The notes beneath the pieces were generated by a model. It searched no databases. It was not told where the DNA came from and saw nothing but the letters and a program-made list of their open reading frames with translations. Shown in pieces: positions 57,038-64,000 of a stretch of DNA of 64,000 bases; the first letter of the stretch is position 1, and the number at the start of each line of letters is the position of its first letter. The stretch comes from Tubiluchus corallicola. Its lineage: Eukaryota; Priapulida; Priapulimorpha; Priapulimorphida; Tubiluchidae. The stretch covers positions 204,147 to 268,146 of the forward strand of contig JAQGDQ010000327.1 in the NCBI GenBank assembly GCA_030141605.1. Reading direction: 5' to 3'. The translations under genes and the position numbers were made by a program.

Positions 57038-57364
57038 AATACTTGCATGAACGTAATCTATAAATAGTGCGCTTTAGAGAGTAGTGATCTTGGAAATTAA
57101 AGAATGGGTGGATCGGTAGATAGCGAGTATTATTTTTCATTTAATTGGTTCTTTACATTACGGGAGAAAAGTACCAATTGTTTATTTTATGTATCAAAGG
57201 AAATTAGTGTTCATTTTTACTTCTTAAATAGCGCACTACTTTAGGCGTAAGTGTGTTTTACCGGAAGTAGTGCTTTGTCATTGTTAATGTGTCTGCTTGT
57301 GTTTGTTTTTTTGTGGATTATTTTCAAAATTTCTGGTGGATTTTATACATCTGTGCTCAGCAGC

Positions 57365-59366
57365 ATGCCTAACAAGTGTGGTGTTGTTAAATGCAAAGGT
57401 AACTATGACACGGAGAACAAGTGTCGTGTGTTCAGACTGCCAAGAGATCATGTAGAAAAACAGAAATGGCTAAGTGTTCGTCCCCCACGCGAAGGCTTTG
57501 TTGTTGATCCAACGAAATTTTTCATTTGCGAAAAGCATTGACCATTTGATACTCAAATGGTCAAAATTCCAGGTGGTCACACCAGGCCAGTGGATCCACC
57601 CAGTATTTTCAACGTTCCAACATCATGCTTGCCCACTCCAAAGCCACCACCTCGCCCTCCAAAAACTGAGGACCAGCAGCTGAATTATTTCTTTAAAAAG
57701 GATAAAATAACTTCTCTCAATGACTTCACTCCTGAGAAAGACCTGCATAAGACGTATCAGAACCTCATTATATCTCGCACACAAGACAAATTTGTGTGCA
57801 TGTTCATGGAAGAGGACCACAGTCAATGTTATATGTCAATTATTGTTCACAATAAGCCTACCTTGTGTTCCCCTCTTACTCTGTATGCTTTCAAAAACGG
57901 GATCAGTGTGCCATTAAGTAAAATCCTCAGTCCGAACAATGGGCTGTCCTCTTACTCACAATTTTTCGCGGTTGTGAATTCTGTTGTCAACCACATTCAT
58001 CATGTTGATGATATTGTCAACAAAGTGACAAAGTCTCTTGAACTTGAACTAGCTCAAAATCGAGAACAATCTCCTAGTGTTAATGCTAAAGCCAAGAAGC
58101 TCAAATTTCTAACACGACAGCTTCGACTATTATGTGATAAGATTTTCACAGTGTCTGATTATTGCTTTGCAATAGAGTCATTTCCCCATTGCAATTACGA
58201 ACAACTGCGTGACTTGTCAGAGATTATCGTTTGACAAGAAAACTGTTGGCTCATTTGCTGAAGTAAAAAGTCTTTACAAAGCTGAGAAAGACAATGTGCT
58301 CAAGTCAACACCTTTGACATATTCTGCAGTCTTCCCATCGAAACTTCAGCTCCAGAATGTGCAACATGTCCTGAGGGTGTTCAACGATCGTGTCGTTGCA
58401 TCGCTGAGACTTCGAGGAGCCCAGGACACTGCAGAATTCATTCAGCAAGTGCTACGCTGGTGGAATGTGGTAAATGTTTCTGCCAGAGGTCAAGACACGA
58501 GGATGAGAGACCCTGATCGATCTGCTCAACAAGATACATCTGATACTCTTCAGTCGTTGTTGACTCTGTTTAAGCAAACCGAATCAGGACACGGACCAAA
58601 TAGAATTGAATGCCTGACACATGATACGCGAAAAGCTTTGATTCAGACCACGGAGGGACTCCTCGCTATCTGTAGGCACTTGTTTTCTGTTGGATTTCAC
58701 TACGTATTATTGCGTGAACTTCAGAGTGACAGAACAGAGGGTGAGTTCTCAGTTTACAGGCAGTCAAGGGGGGCCAATGCATTCATGCAAGCTGGAGATG
58801 TCTGTTCAGCATTCAAGCGGAGACTGGCGCGTTTCTCTGCATCATTCCTGGAGTTTGTGGACACAGACACATCATCCGAAAGCCAGTTGCACACATGCAA
58901 TGGGATTGATTTCGAGGATGCCAAAATTATGGAGATTTGTGTTGACGAGACTCTTTCCAAAACTGAACTGAACGCGTGTTCATATGTCGCAGGTTGGTTG
59001 GAGAGTAAGTGCCAAAATGACATTTCTTTTCCCGAGGATGAGCCTCTCCTTTCTGAGGAAATGAAAATGTTCACTGAAGAAGTGTCTAGGGGAGGTCTTA
59101 CAGTGCCCCACACATTCACGTTCGAATTCGTAACAACTGGCTTGTGTTTTGTGAAGAAGTCAACTCACACAGTCTGCTGCCGCAACAAGCTCATGAACAT
59201 CCTCTCCATAATCAATGCCTACTTTGATTTTGGAGAATTTTCAAGAAATGCTCTGAGACGCCTGGCGAATGTACTGCTGCATGGACTACACAATTTGGAG
59301 AAGGATCACCAGCAGAACTCAGCCCTTTACCAGACCTCCATTAAGAAGGCGCGACTAGCCGACTAA
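57365..59366 (+). pseudogene. THAP-domain P-type transposase, internally deleted and interrupted
   Basis: ATG at 57365 (MPNKCGVVKC) opens a THAP zinc finger: C-x4-C, then W, P and CEKH, then IFNVP near residue 80. An in-frame TGA at 57539 stands right after CEKH where the family has tryptophan. The same frame continues (57542-58234) through a linker and a stretch like FLTRQLRLLCDKIF. A frameshift near 58210-58230 leads into 58209-59366: VKSLYKAEKDNVL, VFNDRVVASLRLRG, LLRELQSDRTEGEF and YRQSRGANAFM, the C-terminal part of P-element and THAP9-type transposases. The RNase H-like region carrying the catalytic acids between the two halves is absent, so this copy cannot cut DNA. Confidence 0.85.
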
Positions 59367-61755: not shown

Positions 61756-62290
61756 TAGATAATGAAAAGCAGTGGCCCAAGAGTGGATCTTTGAGGTACA
61801 CAGCAGTTTAAGTCTAGTAAGTCAGAACATGTATTGTTAATAGTGGTGAACTGTTGTCAATTAATTAAGCTTCAAAGAGATTCAACACAGGGCCTCTGGC
61901 CTCTAATTCCATAATAATGTAATTTATGTAGTAGAATATCATGTTAGACTGTTACAAAGGCTTTAGATAAATCTAAGAATATTGCAAAAATGATTAGTTT
62001 TTTTGTATAAATTTAGAAGCATATTTTCAAAAAACTCAGAAGTAGGTAATGAAGCAGAGTAAGTTTTGCGACAACCAAATTGAAATTTTGTTAGTATATT
62101 ACGTGAAGAGAGAAATAATAAATAATAATATACAAATAATATTTTCAAAAATTTTGGAAACTGGCGACAGGAGAGAGACTGGACGATAATTTGATAGGTT
62201 ATTTGGCGAATCATGTTTATAACCTGGTTTTACTTTTGTTACTTTTAGACATTTAGGAAAATTTCTTTCAGAAACTGCGATAGTAGTGTA
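61756..62290 (-). mobile_element. CR1/L2-like LINE RT fragment
   Basis: On the minus strand: FPKCLKVTKVKPGYKHD, NLSNYRPVSLLSPVSKIFENII, FGCRKTYSASLP, then after decay LLGPLLFII near 61770. These are the RT finger and palm boxes; the catalytic DD box is not seen. The fragment ends abruptly at about 62290, exactly where the compositionally different right-edge segment begins. Confidence 0.75.
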
Positions 62291-62296
62291 AAACAC

Positions 62297-62700
62297 CCCT
62301 AAAAAAGTGCGAAAATCCGCGAAAACCCCTAAAAAGTGTGAAAACCCGCGTGAAAGTGCGCACGTGACCGAAATCTACGAAAAAGCGCGAAAAACAAAGA
62401 AAAACGAAGAAAAGGCGTGTGAAACGAGGGAAAAATTTTGCAGTTTTTCCCCTCCCGCATGGCTTTATTTGGATCGAATGACCTTGAACTCTAGGTCACG
62501 TGACCAAAGTTCATTGACCCCTAGATGGCTTCTTTTTTGACGCCCCATTTTAAACCGCGCGGAAGCGCGCGAAAGCGTGTGAAAGCGCGTGAAAGTGTGT
62601 GAAAGCGTATGAAAGTGTGTGAAAGAGTGTGAAAGTGTGTGAAACGAGGTAAAAAGTGTCTCAAACGAAGAAAAAGGGAGAAGTGGAGTTCCCGCCGAGG
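62297..62700. repeat. Array of about 10-bp gtgaaagcg-type units
   Basis: Two blocks: 62297-62430 with gcgaaaa/cccctaaaaa-like units, and 62556-62662 with regular ten-base steps of gtgtgaaagt / gcgtgaaagc. It is G/A-rich on one strand and unlike any neighbouring sequence. It marks the left border of the segment that holds the TBP-like gene. There is no coding sequence. Confidence 0.8.
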
Positions 62701-62909
62701 ACTAATTAGTGCTAATTGGTGCTAATTGGGGAGCCCGCTGGCTGCCACCCCTCCGTCGCGTGCAAGCGTCCGTCCCGGGGGTCGGGGACCCCCTGCAACC
62801 CACCCCTCCATCGCGTGGAATCGTCCACTGCAGGCAATGAGGGAAATCTTTTTCCCGCCACTCGCACAGTGCCGGCCCTTTTCCGCGACCACTTCTCTCA
62901 CGGGTTTAG

Positions 62910-62953
<44 letters not shown>

Positions 62954-62956
62954 GTG
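62701..62956. repeat. GC-rich direct repeats and (TG)n tract
   Basis: gctaattggtgctaattgg at about 62707-62729; a 26-base block beginning cacccctccgtcgcgtg at about 62746 recurs as cacccctccatcgcgtg at about 62802 (about 56 bases apart) with few changes; then a TG tract at 62911-62956. The stretch is markedly richer in GC than the window average. Confidence 0.8.
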
Positions 62957-63007
62957 GAGATTTATTTCAAACGTCAAAGTTCGATAAATGCATTTTCACA
63001 AATCTTT

Positions 63008-63013
63008 TTTATT
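63008..63013 (-). terminator. Poly(A) signal AATAAA downstream of the TBP-like gene
   Basis: On the minus strand AATAAA lies 115 bases past the stop of the TBP-like frame, with an A/T-rich environment. It fits 3'-end formation for that transcript. Confidence 0.5.
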
Positions 63014-63127
63014 GATAGATTACAAAAATTTTTTTTACATTTTTTATGCAAAATACATACGTGCTAAAACTAGATTATTATTATGGTGACATTTTACGTT
63101 TTTTTCGCAAATTACAGTAAAACTACA

Positions 63128-63745
63128 CTAATGAGTACATGGATTGTCGTCGATGTGATACAGGCAAACGTTATTGTTGTTAAAAACGAATTCGTTAAAT
63201 TTGCGGAAAACGCGAGAGAAATCCTCGACGTTTGTCCCGCCCATCATTATTATGCTTCCGGTGTGAAAAATGTTCAGAGTAATTTGCTCGCATTTACAAG
63301 TTAGTTTGGGAAGTAGCTCCACTTCGTAAAACACTTCTCTAAAAGAATGCGTCGAAGGACGAACGAGTTCTTCGTACAGTGCACCCAGTTTCAATCTGCA
63401 GCGAATTTTGGCTCTGGCGGTGATGGTGCGAATTGCGATCCCGTCGGCGGGCGTCAGTCCGAGACCTTTCGAGAGTTCTTCGATCGCATTTCGTAGTACT
63501 TTTTCCTCGGAAAAACCGTTGGCCACCACGGAGCCGGAGGCAAAAATCATCAGCGTCCCGCCCAGTCGCTTTAGCAGAAGCATTTGCAGTTTCCTTTCGT
63601 AGCGTCTTCCGCCCGTTCTCCGCTGGAGTTCGTTCAGATCGAAGCGCTGCGAGAACGAAGCCGTGGCGATGATGTTGACCATTTGGACTGACACGTTAGA
63701 ACGTAGTTGGCAATCGTTTTGGACGCCCGAATCGCTCTGCCTCAT
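63128..63745 (-). CDS. TATA-binding-protein-like protein, 205 residues, intronless (virus-like)
   Basis: Start ATG at 63745, stop at 63128. After a 21-residue leader the protein shows two TBP repeats. Repeat 1: VNIIATASFSQRFDL (TBP has an NI-ST-N start), RYERKLQMLLL, LMIFASGSVVANG (TBP: IFSSGK-V-TG), EEKVLRNAIEEL. Repeat 2: IRTITARAKI, FYEVELLPKL (TBP: YEPELFPGL), LNIFHTGSIIMMGG, VEDFSRVFRKF. The total length equals the bare TBP core. Several DNA-intercalating phenylalanine positions are replaced, so it is far from cellular TBP. Role by family: recruiting RNA polymerase to promoters. It overlaps the upstream frame by four bases (ATGA). The lack of introns, tight packing and raised GC favour a large DNA virus origin; a divergent host paralogue cannot be excluded. 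Confidence 0.82.
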   Translation of the reverse strand: MRQSDSGVQNDCQLRSNVSVQMVNIIATASFSQRFDLNELQRRTGGRRYERKLQMLLLKRLGGTLMIFASGSVVANGFSEEKVLRNAIEELSKGLGLTPADGIAIRTITARAKIRCRLKLGALYEELVRPSTHSFREVFYEVELLPKLTCKCEQITLNIFHTGSIIMMGGTNVEDFSRVFRKFNEFVFNNNNVCLYHIDDNPCTH

Positions 63746-64000
63746 CCGTTGCTCTGCCAACGTATGGCGGGCGGCGGGTGCTCGCTTTCCAGATCCTCTA
63801 CGCGTATGACCACGCGATTTTTGGGGAGATGTTTTTTGACGAAATCGTACATCTCTGCTCCCTTGACGTAGGTGATCCTGCCTCTGGTGGTCTGTCGTAG
63901 AATGTTTTCCAATTCTGCGTACTCGATCATTCCCTCCTCCCACGAGATGCTGTGTATGTGTCTGATTAGGTAGTTGTAGGTGGATCGCTTGTGCTGGGGA
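63742..64000 (-). CDS. C-terminal part of an unrecognised protein, runs off the window
   Basis: The frame is open from the window edge (about 63999) down to TGA at 63742, giving at least 85 residues. The visible part includes NYLIRHIHSISWEEGMIEY, LENILRQTTRGRITYVKG and a basic/acidic end with KNRVVIRVEDLE. The stop shares bases with the ATG of the TBP-like gene. The pattern W-E-G...YVKG...V-ED-E reminds me of uncharacterised nuclease-like proteins scattered in invertebrate genomes, but this is a weak impression; I assign no function. Context: likely the first gene of a compact two-gene transcription unit. Confidence 0.65.
   Translation of the reverse strand, partial: PQHKRSTYNYLIRHIHSISWEEGMIEYAELENILRQTTRGRITYVKGAEMYDFVKKHLPKNRVVIRVEDLESEHPPPAIRWQSNG

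Follow-up and report, generated by a model that had tools for sequence, protein, structure and literature searches.

A diverged TATA-binding protein gene predicted to belong to Maverick-type elements in the genome of Tubiluchus corallicola

The right edge of the stretch analysed here (the window, i.e., 64,000 nucleotides of Tubiluchus corallicola contig JAQGDQ010000327.1, hereafter C692) holds a gene for a protein resembling the TATA-binding protein (TBP), and the question it raises is what kind of genome such a gene belongs to. The original prediction saw in it an integrated, perhaps undescribed, large DNA virus of an invertebrate. We consider it highly probable that the window instead breaks off within a Maverick/Polinton element (adintovirus-like), of which it shows the left end, represented by its TIR, a diverged TBP gene and, overlapping the latter, an accessory ORF on the minus strand.

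The TBP-like gene at the window edge

The features at this edge are the following:

62290..62899, no strand: TIR of the element, recognised by similarity to the TIR of locus L026; the outermost ~80 bases are missing in the window copy
62900..63127, no strand: non-coding spacer from the TIR to the TBP stop, with a TG repeat and an A/T-rich 3' flank, common to other copies
63128..63745, minus strand: TBP-like ORF, 205 amino acids plus stop, with both TBP repeats and with Pfam, NCBIfam and PDB TBP matches
63742..64000, minus strand: 3' part (85 amino acids) of an accessory ORF (~170 amino acids elsewhere), cut by the contig end

The TBP-like ORF is intronless (205 codons at 63131-63745, stop at 63128-63130), and its stretch has a GC content of 50% versus 37% for the whole window. 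Pfam TBP (PF00352) matches it in two stretches with 75.2 bits (cut-off 22.9, E 3.6e-21), bearing out the homology that had been proposed for both repeats of the 205-residue protein; PDB TBPs match with E-values down to 8e-9, and ten archaeal-type NCBIfam TBP models also match, each below its own cut-off. The predicted AlphaFold model, obtained from a two-sequence input, is poor (pLDDT 37.6), and the Foldseek search with it, in which ranks 1-26 are all TBP-bearing chains with TM-scores of ~0.3, is mostly carried by sequence. The similarity lies far beyond chance, and the ORF is best read as a real, strongly diverged TATA-binding protein.

As contig C692 (268,146 bases) terminates exactly at window base 64000, the upstream ORF is partial here; in full-length copies elsewhere in the genome it has 170 amino acids (ORF170). 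It matches no Pfam, NCBIfam or PHROG family and has no relative among 5.77 billion proteins. The compact, ATGA-coupled gene pair described earlier at this edge is present insofar as the TBP gene is intronless and the 4-base overlap exists in the window, the pair itself being cut by the contig end. The TIR assignment comes from an 89% match between C692:266436-267045 and the TIR stretch of L026 (713 bases, of which positions 80-686 are covered).

The host's own TBP (on C1461) is 92% identical to human TBP over 163 positions. The element TBP shares 23-24% identity with this host protein (173 aligned positions) and is separate from the spliced TBP-like gene on C315, the only further Pfam TBP elsewhere in the genome, the exons of which we take to read as TBPL; the expectation of a diverged TBP that is not the host's is thus upheld. 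Pairwise identities, the sole measure of relatedness used here and one applied to few comparable sequences, amount to 29-30% with E. cuniculi, 26-27% with human and 25-27% with Sulfolobus TBP, and given that these and the value for the host are similarly low, the origin of the element TBP cannot be told; it may ultimately have been captured from a host in the distant past. Among the same 5.77 billion proteins the TBP has one relative (P0001, 59% over 69% of the query), which carries a TBP domain and comes from an unrelated 1.9-kb contig. Scans of IMG/VR with the element proteins and the host TBP, which reach close relatives only, found no relative.

Two other stretches of the window lie to the left of the TIR. 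A THAP-type domain (Pfam THAP 23.2 bits, cut-off 23.9) followed by two long ORFs occupies 57257-59366 (plus strand) and has the look of a P-element-like transposase, and 61906-62247, shortly after which the TIR starts, is 64% similar to positions 1318-1657 of L010, a LINE-like reverse-transcriptase locus.

The parent element and its affinities

Mavericks are regarded as viruses that integrate and that have their kin among the adenoviruses. On contig C1626 (loci L029 and L034) the same TIR, TBP and ORF170 are followed, gap-free, by Maverick-type ORFs, with at least 12.6 kb of the element seen before the contig end cuts it. The order of ORFs after ORF170 is:

Start (L029/L034): ORF without ATG; 337-codon ORF (minus strand)
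Next: P-loop ATPase-like ORF; basic ORF; 265-aa ORF; integrase with chromodomain
Next: ORF in the minor-capsid position; small basic ORF; ORF in the MCP position; adenain-like protease (plus strand)
Last: C-terminal part of a PolB-like ORF (minus strand), running off the contig

The integrase (L029:8419-9513) scores 63.9 bits with rve and 26.1 bits with Chromo, both over the Pfam cut-offs. The protease ORF matches Peptidase_C5 (adenovirus endoprotease) with E 0.0043 and 0.0071, under the 21.3-bit cut-off, and the P-loop ORF matches best AAA_14 (E 0.0013) and then FtsK_SpoIIIE (E 0.0051), all under the cut-offs. The MCP-position ORF has no Pfam or PHROG match, and for the PolB-like piece Pfam gave nothing with E-values of up to 10. 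The capsid and minor-capsid labels reflect size and position, these ORFs having no family match, and together with the PolB label they also lean on motifs taken to mark these proteins. DNA_pol_B_2 (PF03175) matches the genome only on C2073, not on C1626; this C2073 match (G000:C2073:2310-3176, minus strand, 39 bits) lies in a 688-aa open frame, which may represent the polymerase portion that the TBP-bearing Maverick, or another one, lacks.

None of the 11 pieces translated from C1626 contains an internal stop, and a search of the genome with the MCP (18 rows) recovered the full query length without stops on C1626 only. A second, older case of a TBP near an MCP is the decayed locus on C1757, where an MCP relic (340436-341158, minus strand) and a TBP relic (346688-347133, plus strand) are separated by 5.5 kb, in mirror image of the C1626 layout (6.4 kb). 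What is complete in view is the left end of one Maverick only, as C1626 stops inside the PolB-like ORF. The two TIR arms of L026 are 96% identical (729 columns), those of L024 94% (848 columns); the ends read AGTAG(G/T)ATAGATGTT (starting AGTAG(G/T)ATAGATG), with many different flanks beside them. Neither L024 nor L026, the two loci for which a single non-palindromic stretch contains both ends, showed a 6-bp target-site duplication, a weak test in that these loci may be rearranged or misassembled.

Because C1626 joins the TIR, TBP and ORF170 with an integrase, a putative protease and other Maverick-type ORFs, we assign the TBP to a Maverick, and the TBP family appears to be a component of Mavericks/Polintons, virus-like mobile elements that are dispersed across the genome. 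An intronless and repeated TBP homologue in an animal genome could also be a host TBP/TRF paralogue that was retroposed or that multiplied like any other host repeat. We regard this as very improbable, since a host TBP so close to the human one shares little with the element protein, the spliced host TBP-like gene is a separate locus, the copies have their TIRs in common, as well as an upstream ORF for which the searches made turned up no cellular relatives, and on C1626 the TBP adjoins the integrase and putative protease.

The C1626 element resembles Mavericks/Polintons (adintovirus-like) in its long AGTAG TIRs, rve and chromodomain integrase and mid size and, as putative further likenesses, in an adenain-like protease and an ATPase-like ORF. 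According to PMC8097293, vertebrate Mavericks carry the end motif (AGT)2 and the order INT-minor capsid-PW-MCP-protease, with the ATPase placed with PolB; compared with these, the order on C1626 is alike (INT-minor capsid-small basic ORF-MCP-protease, capsid labels by position), whereas its ATPase sits with the integrase module, on the integrase strand. A further difference, here from known Mavericks, is the TBP gene itself, next to which, at the left TIR, the element carries another two or three accessory ORFs. Term searches of PMC8097293, PMC11071308, PMC10120064, PMC10328495, PMC12220804 and PMC11071296 gave no mention of a TBP in the elements these sources describe, and literature searches with a scope that left out the founding adintovirus description brought up no publication that describes a Maverick/Polinton with a TBP, which does not prove its absence in print.

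Larger viruses do encode TBPs. The earlier statement that nimaviruses carry one is correct (wsv303, listed in PMC10871703), and two other sources place TBP in 59% of mirusvirus genomes (PMC10132985) and in a megavirus (PMC11464507). On this ground the window gene could be a remnant of a large DNA virus that has integrated here (nimavirus, nucleocytoplasmic virus or mirusvirus), a reading to which we give hardly any credence: an element of the same family has Maverick-type genes, order and TIRs within 12.6 kb, and the IMG/VR scans, within their reach of close relatives, were empty. Of the proposed large virus, what stands is an integrated virus-like genome, albeit a mid-sized one of Maverick type. 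Its proposed nucleocytoplasmic-virus or nimavirus origin finds no support. The element that bears the same TBP has a Maverick-type integrase, a putative adenain-like protease and an ATPase-like ORF, in Maverick gene order and with long AGTAG TIRs; the neighbours seen beside the TBP on C1626 are Maverick-type. The element TBP is like those of nimaviruses (wsv303), mirusviruses and the megavirus in being virus-encoded, according to the sources cited, and unlike them in that those genomes are large and the present one is a Maverick.

Copies, relics and assembly artefacts

A protein search of the 343.5-Mb assembly with the C1626 copy as query gave 73 genome matches to the TBP, 40 of them at 93-100% identity; the remainder comprises relics (41-78%), pieces of copies that are in the count anyway, and the host TBP (C1461, 29%). 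Not all near-identical rows are separate copies: 13 of the 40 have equal score and represent one shared 342.6-kb right part, and C2254, discounted here, duplicates both TBP copies of C354. Copies on C2 (minus strand) and C2033 that are split by frame breaks were included. With artefacts removed first, our own count comes to about 28 distinct young TBP copies in the genome.

The shared right part was recognised at nine head-to-head TBP loci, in which the right half and flank are identical across the 2,841 bases compared, and subtracting the TBP match end from the length of the contig leaves 342,642 for all nine contigs (C14, C2159, C2200, C1781, C1850, C2066, C2271, C2 and C2185). This is a single right part glued to many left contigs, i.e., an assembly artefact. 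The 342.6-kb stretch, joined through the element and repeated in these nine contigs and at the starts of C457, C628 and C2254, inflates gene counts. The head-to-head TBP pairs, ~1.6 kb apart, were considered as a palindromic element or hairpin-ended virus, which we rejected for most of them on account of the identical right parts and the constant 342,642. The 185-aa ORF at the head-to-head join is partly an artefact of the join, and its empty protein search hence says little. Palindromes on C354 and C2254 have arms that are 97% identical; the one in L022 (C354:34000-43999), with arms of 1.38 kb and a TBP in each, is possibly a true inverted duplication of the element end.

The short derivatives L024, L025 and L026 have one internal junction each, all three of them different and each with 8-10 shared bases as read by eye. 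Given the 342,642-base right part attached to at least nine different left contigs, and contigs that break repeatedly at one point within the upstream ORF, all short and palindromic TBP copies might be pure assembly products, the true family consisting of one or a few full-length elements. This seems improbable to us, as the left flanks differ, the copies differ by point changes, and the shared bases at the L024, L025 and L026 junctions, again by eye, are too short for ordinary k-mer misjoins.

Selection, translation and likely role of the element TBP

The TBP frame is open in 21 of 25 aligned copies and broken in three (L020, L031 and L032), while L027, which starts mid-gene, was not judged. 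Among the young copies (n = 23, L032 and L027 dropped), pN/pS is 0.50 (0.24-1.13) for the TBP beyond the overlap and 0.14 (0.04-0.42) for the upstream ORF, as against 1.53 and 0.97 in shifted frames; within the overlap with the upstream ORF the TBP frame gives an uninformative 1.09 (0.27-9.51). Compared with relics, the decay of which itself raises the ratio, the TBP has a pN/pS of 0.36 (0.24-0.52) for L037, 0.52 (0.39-0.68) for L036, 0.49 (0.30-0.78) for L032 and 0.75 (0.50-1.12) for L035; by frame, the L032 comparison gives 0.45 in the correct one versus 0.88 and 1.24 in the shifted ones. Because three of the four relic comparisons have bootstrap limits below 1, we conclude that the TBP protein was selected, and purifying selection on it is the pattern to which these ratios point.

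How its translation starts is less obvious. The ATG of the ATGA overlap is private to the window copy (two of 41 rows holding the site, i.e., the window and L009, the 41 rows including overlapping loci and artefactual duplicates), and the coupling, on which the original prediction partly leaned, is no feature of the family. In the family the TBP frame is open upstream, up to 342-344 codons, and young copies other than that of the window have no in-frame ATG ahead of the first TBP repeat. The relic L036 has an in-frame ATG near the site, and P0001 starts only at a methionine within repeat 1, which may be a gene-calling effect. Frameshifting or splicing as the start was looked for by eye, yielding no slippery site and no convincing splice pair. 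In the relics L035 (C1846) and L032 (C387) the TBP match or frame is lost right after '...ELSK' between the repeats, either an old intron or a chance coincidence. A 94-codon open frame without any ATG (L029 4703-4987, minus strand) lies directly upstream of ORF170 and overlaps it; preceded by a splice-acceptor-like pyrimidine tract, it is possibly a spliced exon, which would be unusual, Mavericks being described as intronless.

With cellular TBP and TBP-like factor the element protein shares the two TBP repeats; it differs from cellular TBP in its low identity to that of the host, in an altered DNA face of the first repeat and in the young copies without an upstream in-frame AUG. Of the four DNA-kinking phenylalanines, at what we take to be their positions, three are retained by the family, and by P0001 as far as it extends, and two by the window copy, which also lacks the one in ELFP (it reads ELLP where the other copies compared read ELFP). 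Conservation is poor on the face of the first repeat and best in the second repeat (YEVELFP, IFHTG), in P0001 too, and YE.EL, presumably the TFIIB-contact region, is kept in the element family.

The likeliest role of the protein would be that of an element-encoded initiation factor for the element's own promoters. The putative TBP would be made when the element is expressed, bind promoter DNA of the element and bring in host TFIIB and RNA polymerase II there, by which the element may gain its own promoter choice. The poorly conserved first-repeat face, the one replaced kink phenylalanine and the better-kept second repeat could also suit a protein that is made and yet is no activator, e.g., a decoy of host TFIIB or TAFs, a repressor of host transcription or a tether of the integrase to promoters. 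We hold this to be rather unlikely, as ordinary DNA binding would also fit with selection on both repeats.

Continuing with the initiation-factor role, we tentatively postulate that an animal Maverick lineage has for a long time carried a TBP of its own, which serves it as a private initiation factor. This would make it a virus of middle size that integrates and recognises promoters in a step of its own, and internally deleted derivatives, with little beyond the TIRs and the TBP end, may now be its most numerous copies. The locus also cautions against taking every viral-looking TBP in an animal assembly as the sign of a large virus. A captured and selected TBP would offer a handle on Maverick transcription, as one can map the sites that it binds in the element, and the element TBP would add a mid-sized class of viruses to the TBP carriers, i.e., nimaviruses, mirusviruses and giant viruses.
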